Below the pieces are notes generated by a model. That model was not told where the DNA came from, ran no database searches, and worked only from the letters and a program-made list of their open reading frames with translations. Source: Deltaproteobacteria bacterium (lineage in GTDB: Bacteria; Myxococcota_A; UBA9042; DTJE01). From it: 64,000 nt of DNA. Position 1 is the stretch's first letter. Each line of letters opens with the position of its first letter. Below, piece after piece: positions 54,674 through 64,000 of the stretch. Where the stretch lies: assembly GCA_029547805.1 (NCBI GenBank), contig JAKPOP010000028.1:1-64000 (forward strand), in the 5' to 3' direction. Position numbers and translations under genes: made by a program.

Positions 54674-55014
54674 CCGTCGCGCCGGAATGTCAATTTCTTG
54701 ACAGTCCCGTGACTTGCGTGCCGCCGGGGGACCCGGGTGCCTTCCTCCGGTCCTGATCGCCCACCCGCCGGTGGAGGATCCTTACTCCAATCCCTGGACA
54801 GCCCTCCGCCGACGCGGCACCTCGACAAGGGGAGGAGGTCCGCTCCCCCCCCCGTGCCGCGCCCGCCTTCCCCGGGATCCGCTCGGAGCCCTCGGGCCGC
54901 TGCGCTCAGCGGTCCGCCTCTCCGGGCGGGCCACGATTTCGCCAGGGCCACGACGACGCCCTCCCTCCTGCCGGGTGACAGGGAATGCCCCGGTGCAATC
55001 GAGGCGACGTTTCT

Positions 55015-55080: not shown

Positions 55081-58000
55081 ATGTCACGCTCCCGACTTGT
55101 GCCGATGGTGGTGATGGGCGGACTGCTGGCGACGGCTCCCCTGCTGGGCCAGGTCCCCGCGACCAACCCGATCCAGGGCATCTCGGTCACCGAGGAGGCC
55201 CAGGAGACGGTCGTCACGATCACCACCTCGCAGACCCCGACATTTACGGTCTTCCGCCTGGAGGACCCGGTGCGTCTGTTCATCGATGTGAACCGGGGCG
55301 ACATCTCGGCCGCCGCGGAGCCCATCGTGGTGGACAACGGGGTCGTGGATCAGGTGGGCACGCTCCAGTTCAAGTCCTCGGGCGTGCCGATGGGGCGTGT
55401 GATCATCGGGCTGCGGGAGGAGGCGGGGTACGACGTCCGAACCGAGGGCAACCGGATCGTCGTGCGCATCGACGCGAGCCGGCGGCGACCGTCGGGAGCC
55501 GAGACAGGGGCGCTGGCCCGCAAGGCCCAGGAGGTCCGGGACCAGATCGCGCGGGAACAGGCGGTGCTGGACCAGTTGCGGGCCGCCCGGGAACGGGAGT
55601 CCGCCCTGCGGGCCGAGGAGGAAAAGAGCCGGAAGGAGGCGGAGCGGCTGCGACAGGAGGCCGAGCGACTGGCCCGGGAGTCGCGGCAGCAGGCCGAACG
55701 GGCCTCGGAGGATGCCCGGCAGGAGCAGGCCCGGCTCGCGGAGTTGCGTCGACAGGCCGATGCCCAGTCCCGGGAACTGGCCGAACGGACCCGGGCCGCG
55801 GAGGCCCAGTTGAAGGACCTTCAGGCCCAGGCCGCGGCCCTGGAACGCCAGCGCCAGGAGATCGATGCGCGGACCCGGAGGCTCGCGGACCAGCGAACCA
55901 CCGAAGCGGAGCAGGCCATCCGGTCCCTGGAGCAGCAGCGCGCGGACCTGGAGCGGAAGACCCAGGATGCGGCCCAGAAGGCTCGGGAGGCCGAGCAGCG
56001 CCTGGAGGCGCTCCGGAGCGAGGCGACGAAGGCCGCGACCCAGCGGGATGCCCTGACGGAGGCCCAGCGGCTGGAGGCGGCTCGGCTCGAGGTCCTCAAG
56101 AAGGAGCAGGAGGCCGCCCGGGCCGAGAGCCAGGCCCTGGAACGGGCCAGGTCCGCTGAGGCCGAGATGGTCCGCCAGGCAGCCGCGCGTCGGGAGGCCG
56201 AGGAGCGAGCGGCCGAGCAGGCCCGGGAGGCCCGACGGGCAGCCGAGGAGGCGGTCCGGGCCGAGGAGGCCCGGCTGGCCGCGGCCCGGAAGGCCCGGGA
56301 GGCCGAGGAGGCCCACCGCAAGTCCCTCCAGGACCTGGCCGCCAGCGAGGCCGAGAAGGCCCGGCAGGCACGGCAGGCACGGGAACAGGAGGAGCGACTG
56401 CAGGCCGAGATCGCCCAGGCAAGGACCCGGGCCGAGACGACCAGGGTCCGGGAACTGGAGGAGCAACTGGCGGCGAACCAGGCCCGGGCCCGGCAGGCGG
56501 CGGAACAGCTGGCCGGGCGACTCGCGGATGCCGAGGCGGCAGCCCGTGCCCGGGAGCAGGAACTGGCCGCGGCGACGACCCAGGCCCGGGATCTGGAGCA
56601 GCGCCTGGCCCAGCTGCAGCGGGAGAGGGACACCCTGGCCCAGCAGGCCCGCAACGCGGAGCAGGAGGCCCGGGAGGCGGCCCGCCGAGCGGACGAGGCC
56701 ATCGCGGCCCGGGCGGCCGTCGAGACCCAGCGGCAGGAGGCCGAGCGGCTGGCCCAGGCCCTGAAGGCCCAGCGGGAGGAACTGGCCCGGCTGGAGGGCC
56801 AGGCCCGGGCGAAGGCCGCCGAGCTGGAGGCCGTGGCCTCCCGGGCGGAACGGACCTCCGCAGAGGTGACCGAACTGGAGAGCCGGAGGGCACAGGCCGC
56901 TGAAGAGCGGGCCCGGGCCGAGGCGGCCCTGGCGGCGGAGGAGGCACGGCTGGCCCAACTGGCCCAGGAACGGAACGCGGCCCGGAAGGAACTGGAGGAC
57001 CTGAGACGGCAGACGATGGAGCTCCAGGCCCAGCGGGAGCAGGAACTGGCCCGACTCCGGGAGGACCTGCAACGGGAGCGACAGCGGGCCGAGGGGGTCG
57101 AGACGGAGCGCAGCGAGGCCCTGGCCCAGGAACTGCGTCAGAAGGAACAGGAGATGGCGACCCTCCGGGAGTCGCTCCAGGCCCTGCGGGCCGACGTGGA
57201 GGCGACCCGGGCCGAGATGCAGACGAAGGAAGAGACGATCCGGGAACTGACGGACCGGATGGCGAAGGCCCGGGAGGAGGTCGCCCGGGCCCAGCAGGAG
57301 GCGACGCGACGAGAACGGGAGGTCCAGGAACTGCGCCGGGACCTCGCGGCAGCCCAGGCCCGCCAGGACGCCGGGCAGGCCTCGGAGGTCGCCCGGCTCC
57401 AGAAGGCCCTGGGGGAGCGGGAGGCGGCCCTGGAGAGCACCCGGCAGGACCTCGACCGGCGGCTGCAGCAGGCCGACGAACTGGCCCGGCGCCGCGAAGA
57501 GGAAGTCCGGCGACTGACCGCGGACCTGGAGCGGGCCCGGACTGCCCAGCAGCAGGAGCGGGAACAGCGTGCCCAGGAGGTGGAGTCCCTCCGGGGACGC
57601 CTCCAGACGCGGGAGGCAGAACTCCAGGTGATCCGGAAGGCCTACGACGACGCCCGGAAGGCGGCAGGCCGGGACCGGGGCGAGCAGCAGCGAGCCGAGA
57701 CGCTCCGGAAGCGCCTGGAGGCCCAGCAGCAGGAACTGAAGGAACTGCGGGCGCGCTACCAGAAGGAGTCCCAGTCGGTCCGACAGGAACTGCAGTCCCG
57801 GGACCGGCGCATTGCGGAACTGGAGCGACAGATCCAGGCGCTCCGGGCCGACGACGCCGCACGGGAATCAGCAGAGGTGGCGCGGCTCCGGCGGCTCGTC
57901 TCCCAGAAGGAGTCGGAACTGGCCGAGGCCCAGCGCCGGGAGGCCGAGGCCCGGAAGGCCGGGGAGGCCCGGGAGACCACCGCATCCAGGCAGTGGCGGG

Positions 58001-60117
58001 AGGACCTGGCCCGGACCCAGCGGGAACTGGACCGAGCCCGGGCCGAGATGGCGGCGGCCCAGGCCCGGGAGAAGGAGGCCCGGGAACGGGAGGCCCGGGT
58101 CGCGAGCCGGATCGATGAACTCACGGCGGCCCAGGCCCGGGCGGAACAGGAGGCCCAGGCGGCCCGGGCGGCCGCCGACGAGGTGACCCGGCGCCTCCGG
58201 GAGCAGGAGACCGAGGTGGCCCGGCTGCAGCGGGAGCTGGACGCGGCGCGAAGGGCCCAGGCGGCACCGCCGGCGAGGGCCCAGGCGCCCGAGAAGAAGG
58301 CCACCCTGCGCAACGTGGACTTCCGGGCCGGTCGCAGCGGGCCGTCCCTGATCCTGGACGTGGAGGGCAGCCCCCGATACGAGGTGGTCGAGGGGAACCG
58401 CCAGTGGGTCCTGACGCTCCAGGACACCGTGGTGCCCAAGGCCCTGGAACGGAAGATGGACGTGACGGCCTTCGAGTCCCGGGTGACGACGATCAGCGTG
58501 TTCCAGGACGCCCAGGGAAGCGCCCGGATCGTCGCGGACCTGTCGCAGCCCGTGGGACAGTCCCTGGTCCAGGATGGCAACCGCCTGCTGTGGACCTTCA
58601 CCGGGACCTCCGGTGACCGCATGGTGGCCGGCGAGACCGGCGGTCCGGCAGAGGCCCGCACCGGTCCACCCCCGGCCCGGGTCGTGGCCCGGGCGACCCC
58701 CGCGGCGCCCCCGCCGCCCCCGGCCTACGCGCCTCCTGCGGCTCCGGCTCCCGGAGCGGGGCAGGGAGCGACCGTGACCGTGCCGACGGGCGAAGGCCGG
58801 GAGTACCTGAAGCCCGCGATGGTCCCGAAGCGCAAGAAATACAAGGGGAAGCGCATCAACCTGACGGTGAAGGACGCCGACATCCAGAACGTCCTGACCT
58901 TCCTGGCCCGGGAGGGCAAGGTCAACATCGTGACCTCCGAGGACGTCAAGGGGAAGGTCACCTTCCACCTGGAGGACGTGCCGTGGGACCTGGCCCTGGA
59001 CACCGTGCTGCGGGCCAAGGGGCTGGACTACGTCATCGAGCAGGGCATCTACCGGGTGGCCCCGGTGGAGCAGATCCAGAAGGAATACGAGGCCCAGGTC
59101 GAGAAGCAGAAGAAGCAGCAGGCCCTGAAGCCCATCATCGTGCGCCTGATCCCCATCAACTACGGGGACGGGACCGAGATGATGGCCCGGGTCCGGTCGG
59201 TGCTGTCGCCCCAGGGGACCTGCGAGGTGGACCTGCGGACCAACACCCTCGTGATCAAGGACACCGAGGACTTCCTGGAGGCCGCCGAGGACCTGGTCCG
59301 GCGCCTGGACCAGCAGACCTCCCAGATCCTGATCGAGGCCCGGATCGTCGAGGCCCGGACCACGTTCAAGGAGGACATCGGCATCCAGTGGGGCGGCCAC
59401 TTCGCGATGAACTCGGCCTTCGGAAACGAGACGGGGCTCGTCTTCCCCAGCAGCATCGGCCTGGCCGGCGGCGTCGAGCCCTCGGACCCCAAGGGCGGCA
59501 TCGGCTTCCAGAACCCGAACTGGGTGGTGAACCTCCCGGCGGCGGTCGGTCAAGGCACCGGCGGTGCCATCGGAATCCAGCTGGGGTCCATCGGCGGCGC
59601 GGGCAACCTCTCGCTCCGGCTCTCGGCGGCCGAGGAGAACGGGGACGTCAAGATCATCTCGTCGCCCCGGATCTCGACGCTGGACAACCGGACCGCGGTG
59701 ATCTCCCAGGGCGTCTCGATTCCCATCAGCGTCGTGTCGGCGGCGGGCGTGAACACCCAGTTCTTCGCCGCGGAACTGCGCCTGGAGGTGACGCCCCACG
59801 TGACGCGGGACGGCCACATCTCGCTGCGGCTCAACATCACCAAGAACGAGCCGGACTTCGGCAACCTCGCCGCCAATGGCAACCCGACCATCCAGAAGAA
59901 GGAGGCCCGGACCGAACTGCTGATCCGGGACGGGGACACCACGGTGATCGGCGGGATCTACACCCGGAGCACCGGCAAGTCCTACAAGAAGGTCCCCCTG
60001 CTGGGGGACATCCCGATCCTGGGCTGGATCTTCAAGTCCCGGACCCAGACCGATGACCGCAGCGAACTCTTGATCTTCATCACCCCGAAGGTCGTGAACC
60101 GGGAGGTGTCGCTATGA
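55081..60117 (+). CDS. pilQ: PilQ-family secretin with giant periplasmic coiled coil
   Basis: The 1678-residue product is about twice normal PilQ size. Order: signal peptide (1-23, VVMGGLLATAPLLG), AMIN domain (about 30-130), a coiled coil from about 145 to 1060 (Glu/Ala/Arg/Gln heptads, no prolines for long stretches), a second AMIN domain (about 1072-1170), a Pro-rich linker, the secretin N-terminal STN domain (about 1255-1320, INLTVKDADIQNVLTFLARE), an N-domain (to about 1400) and the pore-forming secretin domain ending VPLLGDIPILGWIF and LLIFITPKVVNREV. Secretins form the outer-membrane channel of type IV pili. The usual pilMNOP genes are not upstream. The stop overlaps the next ATG. Confidence 0.9.
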   Translation: MSRSRLVPMVVMGGLLATAPLLGQVPATNPIQGISVTEEAQETVVTITTSQTPTFTVFRLEDPVRLFIDVNRGDISAAAEPIVVDNGVVDQVGTLQFKSSGVPMGRVIIGLREEAGYDVRTEGNRIVVRIDASRRRPSGAETGALARKAQEVRDQIAREQAVLDQLRAARERESALRAEEEKSRKEAERLRQEAERLARESRQQAERASEDARQEQARLAELRRQADAQSRELAERTRAAEAQLKDLQAQAAALERQRQEIDARTRRLADQRTTEAEQAIRSLEQQRADLERKTQDAAQKAREAEQRLEALRSEATKAATQRDALTEAQRLEAARLEVLKKEQEAARAESQALERARSAEAEMVRQAAARREAEERAAEQAREARRAAEEAVRAEEARLAAARKAREAEEAHRKSLQDLAASEAEKARQARQAREQEERLQAEIAQARTRAETTRVRELEEQLAANQARARQAAEQLAGRLADAEAAARAREQELAAATTQARDLEQRLAQLQRERDTLAQQARNAEQEAREAARRADEAIAARAAVETQRQEAERLAQALKAQREELARLEGQARAKAAELEAVASRAERTSAEVTELESRRAQAAEERARAEAALAAEEARLAQLAQERNAARKELEDLRRQTMELQAQREQELARLREDLQRERQRAEGVETERSEALAQELRQKEQEMATLRESLQALRADVEATRAEMQTKEETIRELTDRMAKAREEVARAQQEATRREREVQELRRDLAAAQARQDAGQASEVARLQKALGEREAALESTRQDLDRRLQQADELARRREEEVRRLTADLERARTAQQQEREQRAQEVESLRGRLQTREAELQVIRKAYDDARKAAGRDRGEQQRAETLRKRLEAQQQELKELRARYQKESQSVRQELQSRDRRIAELERQIQALRADDAARESAEVARLRRLVSQKESELAEAQRREAEARKAGEARETTASRQWREDLARTQRELDRARAEMAAAQAREKEAREREARVASRIDELTAAQARAEQEAQAARAAADEVTRRLREQETEVARLQRELDAARRAQAAPPARAQAPEKKATLRNVDFRAGRSGPSLILDVEGSPRYEVVEGNRQWVLTLQDTVVPKALERKMDVTAFESRVTTISVFQDAQGSARIVADLSQPVGQSLVQDGNRLLWTFTGTSGDRMVAGETGGPAEARTGPPPARVVARATPAAPPPPPAYAPPAAPAPGAGQGATVTVPTGEGREYLKPAMVPKRKKYKGKRINLTVKDADIQNVLTFLAREGKVNIVTSEDVKGKVTFHLEDVPWDLALDTVLRAKGLDYVIEQGIYRVAPVEQIQKEYEAQVEKQKKQQALKPIIVRLIPINYGDGTEMMARVRSVLSPQGTCEVDLRTNTLVIKDTEDFLEAAEDLVRRLDQQTSQILIEARIVEARTTFKEDIGIQWGGHFAMNSAFGNETGLVFPSSIGLAGGVEPSDPKGGIGFQNPNWVVNLPAAVGQGTGGAIGIQLGSIGGAGNLSLRLSAAEENGDVKIISSPRISTLDNRTAVISQGVSIPISVVSAAGVNTQFFAAELRLEVTPHVTRDGHISLRLNITKNEPDFGNLAANGNPTIQKKEARTELLIRDGDTTVIGGIYTRSTGKSYKKVPLLGDIPILGWIFKSRTQTDDRSELLIFITPKVVNREVSL

Positions 60118-60923
60118 ACAGGCGGATCCCTGGCAAGGGGCGTGCGGCCGTCCTCGCGACGGCCATCCTGGCAGGCTGCTTCTCCTGGACTTGCGAGACG
60201 TCGAATCCCCAGGCGATCTTCGTGCTGGACGCCGCGGCGGTGACCTTCGCCACCCAGTGCACGATCCGCCCGGGACAGGCGGCCCAGGCCATCTGGCCCT
60301 ACGGGAGATTGGACCTGGCCCTGACCAACCAGTACTGGCTGTTCCCCCGGTTCCGCAACATGCTGAACCCCATCCGGACCGTCACCGGGGAGACCCTCGA
60401 GACTCCCCAGGCCGAGGCCCACTACCTCACGGTGCAGGTCGCCCGGGTCTTCCTGGACATGGGGGAGTTCTCACCGAAGGGCAGCGACAACCCGGCGACC
60501 AAGCAACTCGGTTACAAGTACATGTACGAGGGGGTCGAGTCCCAGGTGGCAGCCGGCGTCGCGCCGCTGACCGAGGGCATCGTCGCGGTGCAGGTCATCC
60601 CGCCGGAACTGGGCAACGTGCTCGACCGGAAGATGCAGGAGGCCGTTCGGAGCGTCTCCAACCCGGCGGTCTGGGTCACCGCCTACGTGACCCTCATTGC
60701 CCAGATGCAGGACGGCACCGTGGTCCAGTCCAACGAGTTCGCCTTCCCGATCCAGTTGTGCTGGGGGTGCCTGGTGGTCCCCTCCTGTCCGGACCAGATC
60801 CAGCAACTGCCCTGCAACCTGGGCCAGGACGAGTCGATTCCCGGCACCGTCTGCCAGTGCCTGGCCAATCACCCCGAGGGCTGTCCGGTCGACTGCGGCG
60901 TCGCCTGCTGGCCCGCCCCCTGA
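60114..60923 (+). CDS. Lipoprotein coupled to pilQ
   Basis: The 269-residue product has a lipoprotein signal (AVLATAILAGC, lipidated Cys22). The mature part contains FVLDAAAVTFATQC, a hydrophilic middle (LDLALTNQYWLFPRFRNML) and a Cys-rich C-terminus (CWGCLVVPSCPDQIQQLPC, CQCLANHPEGCPVDCGVAC). Its start overlaps the secretin stop (ATGA). A pilotin or assembly role for the secretin is suggested only by this coupling; it does not resemble PilF/PilW TPR pilotins. Confidence 0.75.
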   Translation: MNRRIPGKGRAAVLATAILAGCFSWTCETSNPQAIFVLDAAAVTFATQCTIRPGQAAQAIWPYGRLDLALTNQYWLFPRFRNMLNPIRTVTGETLETPQAEAHYLTVQVARVFLDMGEFSPKGSDNPATKQLGYKYMYEGVESQVAAGVAPLTEGIVAVQVIPPELGNVLDRKMQEAVRSVSNPAVWVTAYVTLIAQMQDGTVVQSNEFAFPIQLCWGCLVVPSCPDQIQQLPCNLGQDESIPGTVCQCLANHPEGCPVDCGVACWPAP

Positions 60924-61177: not shown

Positions 61178-62314
61178 TCAGTGCTCGGGAAGGTTGCCGC
61201 ATCGCACGACGTCGTCCATCGTCCGGGCCTTCCACGCGCAGACGGAGAAATCCAGGTCGCCCGCGTTGCATCGCCGGAGGCAGATGTTCCGGATGGGATC
61301 CCTGGCCCCCTCCGAGTCCACCGCCTGCACGAAACGGTCACAGACCTTCTTGCAGTCCGGCTTCTTCGCCTCTCCTGCCGGGGACCCCGGCGTCGAGGGC
61401 TTCTCGGCTGGGGTCTGGGCCACCGGCGCAGGCTGAGGGGCCGGAGCCGGCTCAGGACTCGGGGACGCCGCAGGCTGGGGGGCCGGCTCAGGACGCGGAG
61501 ACGCTGCGGGCTGCGGCGCCGGGGCCGGCTCGGGACGCGGGGCGGGCTTGGGAGCCGGCGCCGGAGCCGGAGCGACCACCGGAGCGGGAGGCGGAGGAGC
61601 GGGCTGCCGGACGGGAACGGGGGTCTCCCGAACCACGGGAGCCGCCGGCGGCGACGAGGCCCCGACCGGAACCGAGACCAGACTCACCGCCCGGGCTGCA
61701 ACGTCCACGTCCTGTCGATACATCCAGGCCCCACTGACCAGCACGACCTCGTGGCGACCCTCGGGGACGCGCCGGAGGGTCAAGGGGGTCCGCCCGACGT
61801 ACTCCCCGTCCACCGAGATCTCGGCCCCGGTGGGCTCGGTGAGAATGGTCAGGGCTCCGGTCCCACCCTGGGTGGCCGGCCTCAGCGATACGAAGAGTTT
61901 CAGGACCTCCTCCTCCCGGAGTTCCACGGCCCCGGAGATCGTCTCCATGCCGGGGGCGGACACCTGGAGGTTCACGACCCGGTCCTCCCGCCAGCGCAGG
62001 AACACCCGTCCGCGCCCCTCCAGGGACCCCTCGATCCGGATCTCCGCCGTCTCCGGCGAGGTCTCCACAAAGAGGTAGGCGGGACGTTTGAGAGGGTTCG
62101 GGCGACGATTCTTGAGCCGGGCGTCCCCGGGAGGAATCAACACCTCGGGCCCCTGGAATTCCCCGGGGGCGGGCCCTCGAACCCGGGGTGCCGGAGCCGG
62201 CTCCGGCACGGGAGCAGGAGGCGGAGGTGCCGGGGGATCGGAGGGCCGGGGTTTCGCCTCGGCAGCCACGACCCCACAGAGAACCACCACCATGGCCAAG
62301 CACGTTCGTTTCAT
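61178..62314 (-). CDS. Secreted PEGA-domain, proline-rich protein
   Basis: The 378-residue product has a signal peptide (CLAMVVVLCGVVAAEA) and a Pro/Ala linker. Two PEGA-like beta domains follow (about 78-145, AYLFVETSPETAEIRIEGSL; and about 148-215, LTILTEPTGAEISVDGEYVG). A long Pro-Ala-rich stretch (about 220-315, PAP/PEP repeats) comes next, then a Cys-rich C-terminus with five Cys (CKKVCDRFVQAVDS, CLRRCNAGD, VCAWKARTMDDVVRC). PEGA domains occur in surface-associated proteins. The ATG has GGAGGGG upstream. Confidence 0.82.
   Translation of the reverse strand: MKRTCLAMVVVLCGVVAAEAKPRPSDPPAPPPPAPVPEPAPAPRVRGPAPGEFQGPEVLIPPGDARLKNRRPNPLKRPAYLFVETSPETAEIRIEGSLEGRGRVFLRWREDRVVNLQVSAPGMETISGAVELREEEVLKLFVSLRPATQGGTGALTILTEPTGAEISVDGEYVGRTPLTLRRVPEGRHEVVLVSGAWMYRQDVDVAARAVSLVSVPVGASSPPAAPVVRETPVPVRQPAPPPPAPVVAPAPAPAPKPAPRPEPAPAPQPAASPRPEPAPQPAASPSPEPAPAPQPAPVAQTPAEKPSTPGSPAGEAKKPDCKKVCDRFVQAVDSEGARDPIRNICLRRCNAGDLDFSVCAWKARTMDDVVRCGNLPEH
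61425..61640 (-). repeat. Low-complexity Pro/Ala-coding repeat
   Basis: Short imperfect units coding for PAPAPQPA- and RPEPAPQPAASP-like segments repeat across this stretch (for example GGAGCCGGAGCC and GGCTCAGGAC on the plus strand). They lie inside the PEGA-domain gene and encode an extended spacer. Confidence 0.6.
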
Positions 62315-62376
62315 CGTGATCCCCTCCGCGTCATCGATGGACGGACCGGTCCTCCCATCCTGCTGCGAACGGCCGC

Positions 62377-62406
62377 ATTCTGTCCCGCTCGTCCCGAGGA
62401 AGTCAA
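62377..62406 (-). promoter_or_regulatory. Predicted promoter of PEGA-domain gene
   Basis: On the minus strand TTGACT (62406-62401), an 18-bp spacer and CAGAAT (62382-62377, 4/6) are seen. The leader is about 55 nt. Confidence 0.4.
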
Positions 62407-62486
62407 TCGGTTCGATGTCCCGGCGTTCCTTCGGGGACCCGACCGTTCGACTTCCGCTACACTCTCCTGGAGCCGTGAGGAATCGG

Positions 62487-64000
62487 ATGCGCACCCCCGA
62501 ACAACGTCCCAGCCGCCCGAGGGTGCACGCTGCCGTCGCAGGAGTCATCTCCGCACTGCTGGTCTGGGTGGCCTGTGGCGGTACCCCCGGAGGGAACCCT
62601 GCGGACCGGGACCTTCCAGGGCTCGACTCGCCGGACCGGCCCGAAGCCGAGGTTTCCCCGGACCCGGGCCGGGACGACGGCGACGAAGCGGCCTTTCCAC
62701 TGGACGCCCCGGAAGTGGGAAGGGATGCCGAATTCCGTGACCCCGGAGACACTGCCCCTGGAAAGGACTCGGAAGCCCCCCAGGACGGAGAGGCCCGGGA
62801 CGTGGAGTGGCAGGACCCGGGCAGGGAGGACGTCCCGGCGGGGGAGGAGGCCCCCCCGACCGATGCGGCGCGCTGCATGCCAGACGAGGACCCCTGTCCA
62901 TGCCAGGAGGACGAGGACTGCCCTGAGGGGACCTTCTGCGCCGGAGACCGATGCAGACCCTGGGTCTGCTGGCCCGGGGCAACCACCTGCCTGGAGTCCA
63001 ACCGGATCCTGTGCGACCGCAACGGGGGCGGCTACCAGGTGCTCGAGGACTGCGACGACCACAATGCCTGCACCCTCGGAGACGGCTGCGCGGCCGGGGG
63101 ATGCCTGCCCCGCAGCGCCGTGTCCTGCGACGACGACAATCCCTGTACGGTGGACCGGTGCGAACCCACGACCGGGGAGTGTCGTTTCGAGCCGATGGAC
63201 GACCTGCCCTGCGACGACGGGGACCCCTGCACGACCGGGGACCGCTGCCAGCAGGGTGCCTGCGTTCCCCCGGGATCCCGCTTCTGTGGAGACGGGAACC
63301 CCTGCACGGACGACCTCTGCACCTCCCTGCTGGGCTGCGTGCACCTGCCCCGGGAGGGGCCCTGCACCCCCGGGGCCTCGACCCCCTGCACGGTCGGAGG
63401 ATCGTGCCGGGACGGGCGCTGCGACCCGGTGCCCCGGGACTGCGATGACCAGGACGTCTGCACGGAGGACTCCTGCGACCCGGCCTCCGGGACCTGCCGA
63501 CACCTGCCGATTCCCGGCTGCGCCTGTGTCTCTGACCGGGACTGCGACGACGAGGACCCCTGCACCGACGACCCTTGCCAGAACGGGGCCTGCAGCCACG
63601 TCCCGAAGACCGGCCTTCCCTGCTGCCTGGACGACCGGGACTGCCCCGTCGAGGACCCGTGCCTCGAGGCCCTCTGCCAGGAACGCCGGTGCACCCAACG
63701 CCCACGGACCACCCCCGAGTGCTGCCAGAACCCGGACCGGCGGTGGGACTTCGAGGCGGGTCCTGGCGACTGGACCCCCGTCCCCGACGACCAGGCGGCC
63801 CTGCGATGGCGCTGGATGGCGGCCCCAGGAGGCGGCGGTGCCCTGGGCTTCGGCCGGGAGGATGGGGCGCCTTTTGACGTGCAGACCCCGGTGACCGGAG
63901 AGGTCCGGTCGGTGCCGCTGGCGATCCCCGGTGGCGTGCAGACCCGGATCCGGTGGCGGGTCTGGCTGGACCTTGACGACGCTCCGGGAAGGGACCTCGT
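62487..64000 (+). CDS. Cys-rich repeat lipoprotein, 3' end outside window
   Basis: At least 504 codons are open to the window edge. The ATG at 62487 has GAGG six bases upstream. It encodes a lipoprotein signal (AALLVWVACGG, Cys30), an Asp/Glu/Pro-rich spacer (about 35-130), then tandem Cys repeats (about 133-415) of the form CDDxDPCTxDxCxxGxC, for example SCDDDNPCTVDRCEP and CDDEDPCTDDPCQNGAC. A domain beginning RWDFEAGPGDWTPVP and continuing GGGALGFGRED follows, resembling the start of a carbohydrate-binding or jelly-roll-like module. Such Cys/Asp arrays are typical of Myxococcota extracellular proteins and may bind calcium. Exact function is unknown. Confidence 0.85.
   Translation, partial: MRTPEQRPSRPRVHAAVAGVISALLVWVACGGTPGGNPADRDLPGLDSPDRPEAEVSPDPGRDDGDEAAFPLDAPEVGRDAEFRDPGDTAPGKDSEAPQDGEARDVEWQDPGREDVPAGEEAPPTDAARCMPDEDPCPCQEDEDCPEGTFCAGDRCRPWVCWPGATTCLESNRILCDRNGGGYQVLEDCDDHNACTLGDGCAAGGCLPRSAVSCDDDNPCTVDRCEPTTGECRFEPMDDLPCDDGDPCTTGDRCQQGACVPPGSRFCGDGNPCTDDLCTSLLGCVHLPREGPCTPGASTPCTVGGSCRDGRCDPVPRDCDDQDVCTEDSCDPASGTCRHLPIPGCACVSDRDCDDEDPCTDDPCQNGACSHVPKTGLPCCLDDRDCPVEDPCLEALCQERRCTQRPRTTPECCQNPDRRWDFEAGPGDWTPVPDDQAALRWRWMAAPGGGGALGFGREDGAPFDVQTPVTGEVRSVPLAIPGGVQTRIRWRVWLDLDDAPGRDL

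Follow-up and report, generated by a model that had tools for sequence, protein, structure and literature searches.

A predicted giant coiled coil separates the two AMIN domains of the type IVa pilus secretin PilQ in a lineage of Myxococcota: a possible peptidoglycan anchor

Background

The secretin PilQ is the anchor of a motor that ranks among the strongest known in biology. The hold of its outer ring on the cell wall and the placement of the ring are still under study. PilQ proteins are typically, though not by definition, about 700-900 amino acid residues long. The order N0/STN, N1 and secretin is expected of them, and an AMIN domain at the N-terminus is a frequent, not universal, trait. 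The PilQ proteins of P. aeruginosa and Neisseria (700-760 residues) have this common core, and AMIN domains have been reported in both (PMC10653833). In M. xanthus PilQ (901 residues; PDB 3jc8), AMIN domains are likewise followed by N0, N1 and the secretin domain. Its three AMIN domains (PMC10653833) lie within the approximately 475 residues before the core; they bind peptidoglycan and are needed for the recruitment of PilQ to the poles (PMC10653833). The secretin pore is also found in GspD of the type II secretion system (T2SS).

In the present study, we examined a giant pilQ gene in the window, that is, the whole analysed stretch of 64,000 nucleotides from a bacterium of the phylum Myxococcota, and its relatives in the same class and phylum. 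We found that two AMIN domains are pushed apart by a long coiled coil in every complete PilQ frame of the class. PilQ is a known family, and the layout of AMIN, giant coil and AMIN is apparently undescribed; the literature that we searched, with most subscription journals outside its reach, gave no description of a secretin with such a long coil.

Methods

The survey of the class covered 52 genomes, including that of the window, and the counts were limited to PilQ frames that are complete on their contig. AlphaFold2 was given an alignment of 24 homologues, and the models covered the two ends of the coil. Lengths of straight arms were calculated from the rise of a coiled coil, about 0.15 nm per residue.

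Results

The features of the gene and of its downstream neighbour are as follows (residues refer to the PilQ protein).

55081..60117, + strand: pilQ, giant type IVa pilus secretin, 1,678 residues (open frame and profile matches)
55081..55152, + strand: predicted signal peptide, residues 1-24 (judged by eye)
55171..55473, + strand: AMIN1, peptidoglycan-binding-type beta-sandwich, residues 31-131 (Pfam, AlphaFold, Foldseek, phmmer)
55492..58266, + strand: coiled coil, residues 138-1062 (proline-free run, periodicity, AlphaFold, helix-break scan)
58303..58605, + strand: AMIN2, residues about 1075-1175 (Pfam, AlphaFold)
58606..58830, + strand: Pro/Ala-rich disordered linker, residues 1176-1250 (AlphaFold pLDDT about 35)
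58849..59070, + strand: N0/STN domain (Pfam, AlphaFold)
59140..59325, + strand: N1 (Secretin_N) domain (Pfam)
59626..60096, + strand: secretin pore domain (Pfam, NCBIfam)
60114..60923, + strand: predicted lipoprotein of 269 residues, its ATG overlapping the pilQ stop codon (sequence prediction)

The start at 55081 was preferred over an upstream in-frame ATG at 54985 because a signal peptide follows it and the sister species shares the MSRxRLVPM start. Pfam matched AMIN (two stretches), N0/STN, Secretin_N and Secretin in the 1,678-residue product, and the order N0/STN, N1 and secretin was seen with both Pfam and AlphaFold. The PilQ model TIGR02515 (NCBIfam) matched over positions 1-428 of 428 with 415 bits against a cutoff of 284, whereas the T2SS GspD model TIGR02517 gave 226 bits, below its cutoff of 351. 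These profiles identify the window gene as PilQ, the secretin of the type IVa pilus, in a lineage of Myxococcota. A preliminary description, made from the letters of the window, had called it a PilQ-family secretin with a coil between AMIN domains and an intact pore, and all three points were borne out. Among solved structures, M. xanthus PilQ comes nearest to the core (454 bits), and in that protein there is no room for such a coil before the core; the P. aeruginosa and Neisseria proteins are less than half as long as the window protein, and a coil of this size is impossible in them.

AMIN1 alone matched Pfam AMIN over residues 34-129 (E 7e-7), and the AMIN1 of all 24 aligned class members matched it as well. 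Its best superpositions in Foldseek were with M. xanthus PilQ and E. coli AmiC, and phmmer aligned it with residues 32-140 of M. xanthus PilQ, the first AMIN of that protein (E 4e-17).

Residues 138-1062 form a run of 925 residues with zero proline and few glycines, composed mainly of Ala, Arg, Glu, Gln and Leu. The hydrophobic period of the window coil was heptad-like, 3.53; its power was 29, and the highest value among the shuffles was 9.6. In 25 of 27 coils (the window protein and its relatives) a period of 3.46-3.60 stood above every shuffle. Periodicity of charge, of the type seen in the packing of ordered filaments, rose above the shuffles in only three of the 27. AlphaFold2 modelled the N-terminal fragment as the AMIN1 beta-sandwich (31-131) followed by an unbroken helix from 140 to 244, the end of the fragment, with pLDDT about 97. 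The second model, from the C-terminal end of the coil onward, showed helix to residue ~1060, AMIN2, the disordered linker to ~1250 and the secretin domains. In most of the coils scanned, neither a central helix break nor a hairpin loop was found. The coiled-coil and AlphaFold checks proposed in the preliminary description thus gave helix at both modelled coil ends, and, as far as sequence and models tell, a long continuous coiled coil rich in Ala, Glu, Arg and Gln lies between the two AMIN domains.

The coil could be aligned along its whole length with that of a metagenome-assembled genome (MAG) of the same genus (L033/L099, JAGOKF010000065.1), with 83-95% identity per 100 residues, 0.89 overall, and indels of 4 and 1. 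Substitutions in the coil numbered 70/44/226 over codon positions 1/2/3. In the same comparison, dN/dS was lowest in the core (0.023), followed by AMIN1 (0.065), AMIN2 (0.13) and the coil (0.17). On this codon evidence, the coil is coding and under purifying selection. The most frequent amino-acid exchanges in it were Q/R, D/E and A/S, a pattern to be expected where structure constrains a helix. No PilQ of normal length was found in the genus or the class of the window organism, and the only other secretin in the window genome was a GspD of 946 residues. Either a join in the assembly at the coil or normal-length orthologues would have spoken against the preliminary description; neither was seen. 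An artefact of assembly or a frame error that fused a coil gene to pilQ is refuted: nothing in its favour was seen, the coil recurs in the separate same-genus MAG and throughout the class, and shorter versions occur in single-contig genomes.

The search for long secretins of the same order returned the layout across the class and in at least eight other families of Myxococcota. In the class, all 28 complete PilQ frames showed the AMIN-coil-AMIN order, with 566-2036 residues from AMIN to AMIN (median 1371). Measured stop to stop, PilQ of the class spans 1,292-2,830 residues. The remaining PilQ frames of the class were interrupted by contig ends, and a few genomes gave no PilQ-type frame. One further locus (G020/L124, 3818-10462, + strand) shows the same giant layout, broken by one in-frame stop within the N-domain region; the stop divides it into parts of 1,814 and 400 residues; this is either an error of the MAG or a decaying gene.

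Outside the class, coil-filled AMIN-to-AMIN spans of 223-921 residues were found in the at least eight further families. The PilQ proteins of two Bradymonadia with single-contig genomes (G058, G174) bear the coil in the same order, with only 281-389 residues from AMIN to AMIN, about 42-58 nm if straight. Three families (f13, f37, f39) were considered as coil-bearing and rejected, their AMIN gap being without a long proline-free run. The coil was absent from several Myxococcota families, M. xanthus and a Nitrospiria bacterium. The tree of the secretin core requires two changes in the presence of the coil, which one nested clade of Myxococcota has apparently lost. In the case of M. xanthus, a loss was rejected, because this species lies outside the coil-bearing clade. 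With long deep branches in the tree, one gain and one later loss is the simplest history, which we consider probable, not proven.

Internal tandem copies occur in many coils and reach 100% identity over 42 residues, and coil lengths differ within genera (1331 and 1167 in one case; 1483, 1497, 1525 and 1701 in another). Indels of whole heptads (14, 28) between close relatives are suggestive and too few. In one locus (L141, 4125-8495, + strand), the PilQ coil is built of near-identical copies of ~103 residues and has clearly grown through tandem duplication. That the window gene itself expanded recently in tandem was considered and rejected: TRF gave only short, weak arrays, and self-similarity was 0.45 against 0.43 in shuffled sequence. 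Since lengths drift by internal duplication and differ within a genus, a precise ruler is unlikely, and the sequences fit a coil that acts as a spacer of minimum length.

The rest of the pilus machine was found in the window genome. PilM, PilN, PilO and PilP, each matching its own Pfam family, are encoded on contig C7 (208-3378), and PilB, PilT and a PilC-type protein on contig C4. A LysM protein on contig C10 resembles TsaP in layout, as judged by eye. In most of the class, giant pilQ ends a pilMNOPQ operon with aroKB next. In the family of the window, pilQ has moved away from pilMNOP (contigs C22 and C7 of the window genome, G000); the order pilMNOPQ-aroKB is preserved elsewhere in the class. 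The proposal in the preliminary description that the coil replaces missing PilMNOP contacts is therefore refuted, as the four proteins are present in the same genome and the operon elsewhere in the class; no type IVa pilus component that the coil would need to replace was found missing in the window genome.

In 22 loci of the class, homologues of the predicted 269-residue lipoprotein lie downstream of pilQ or of the aroKB that comes after it. It matched nothing in Pfam or NCBIfam, and it is a possible PilQ partner or pilotin. A PEGA-domain protein (61178-63022, - strand) is conserved beside pilQ in the family of the window. Directly 3' of pilMNOP in the window genome, a protein with FHA and TPR domains (L091, 3713-5692, + strand) may be a regulator.

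Discussion

A straight arm would be ~137 nm long in the window protein and about 84-300 nm across the class, and the periplasm is about 25-35 nm wide. The geometric point of the preliminary description, that a straight helix of ~130-140 nm is unable to stand upright in the periplasm, was upheld, and a rod of this length would thus lie along the envelope. Of the arrangements that it offered, an arm along the envelope that touches the peptidoglycan fits best; a coil that folds back or winds round as a collar is less probable, since most coils have no central break.

We propose that every subunit of the 12-15-membered ring would bear a stiff rod of ~137 nm, with AMIN2 and N0 held at the channel and AMIN1 at the far tip. 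AMIN1 would grip the peptidoglycan far from the channel, and a rod lying flat along the envelope would pay almost no bending cost. The ring of such outriggers may find septal or polar peptidoglycan, spread the load of retraction across a large area of wall and space neighbouring machines.

Several observations point to such an anchor. All 28 complete class members keep one AMIN at each end of the coil. AMIN1 is similar to the AMIN domains of AmiC and M. xanthus PilQ, and the M. xanthus domains bind peptidoglycan (PMC10653833). The hydrophobic period exceeds shuffles in 25 of the 27 coils, most of them unbroken in the centre, and the coil evolves at a dN/dS of 0.17 with Q/R, D/E and A/S exchanges dominant. 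The remaining type IVa pilus machine is present, and the range of 566-2036 residues, the internal repeats and the differences within a genus are in line with a spacer of this kind. The architecture is seen directly in the sequences and models, and the action as an outrigger and the reach of AMIN1 are what we deduce from it. A peptidoglycan anchor through AMIN1 at the rod tip is the best explanation that we can offer, held at a little under even confidence. A broader statement, which we put forward tentatively, is that Myxococcota evolved a pilus secretin with coiled-coil outriggers of 85-300 nm on its subunits, peptidoglycan-tipped and radiating across the periplasm. We know of no secretion or pilus machine in which such anchoring or spacing in the envelope has been seen.

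The coils of adjacent PilQ rings might instead pair into a polar lattice of machines, with the AMIN domains serving only for initial placement. Long coiled coils commonly associate with one another, and these are amphipathic along their whole length. However, the charge periodicity that drives ordered assembly of rods is absent, with only the three coils noted above exceeding shuffles, and the coils diverge strongly between genera and differ in length within a genus; such a scaffold seems unlikely.

The drift in length and the internal repeats would also fit a coil that was expanded by tandem duplication and is simply tolerated, so that only the separation of the AMIN domains, or nothing, matters. 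The higher dN/dS of the coil than of the core (0.17 against 0.023) and the apparent loss in the nested clade agree with this passive role. Nevertheless, at least 566 residues are kept in 28 of 28 complete class members, and a dN/dS of 0.17 is purifying and proline is near zero, which makes mere tolerance rather improbable. A cage or stalk round the vestibule, formed by a coil that folds back or wraps the channel, would fit within the size of the periplasm, an argument from dimensions that no tool result favours; the coil has no conserved central loop, its variable length would give no fixed symmetry, and wrapping at ~10 nm radius would cost tens of kT at an assumed persistence length of ~100 nm, so we regard this arrangement as distinctly improbable.

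Returning to the peptidoglycan anchor, up to ~2,000 residues of rod between two wall-binding domains amount to a natural experiment. The layout predicts visible lateral structures, which can be tested in cultured Bradymonadia, and a giant-armed PilQ could reveal how the area of anchoring or the spacing of machines is set.
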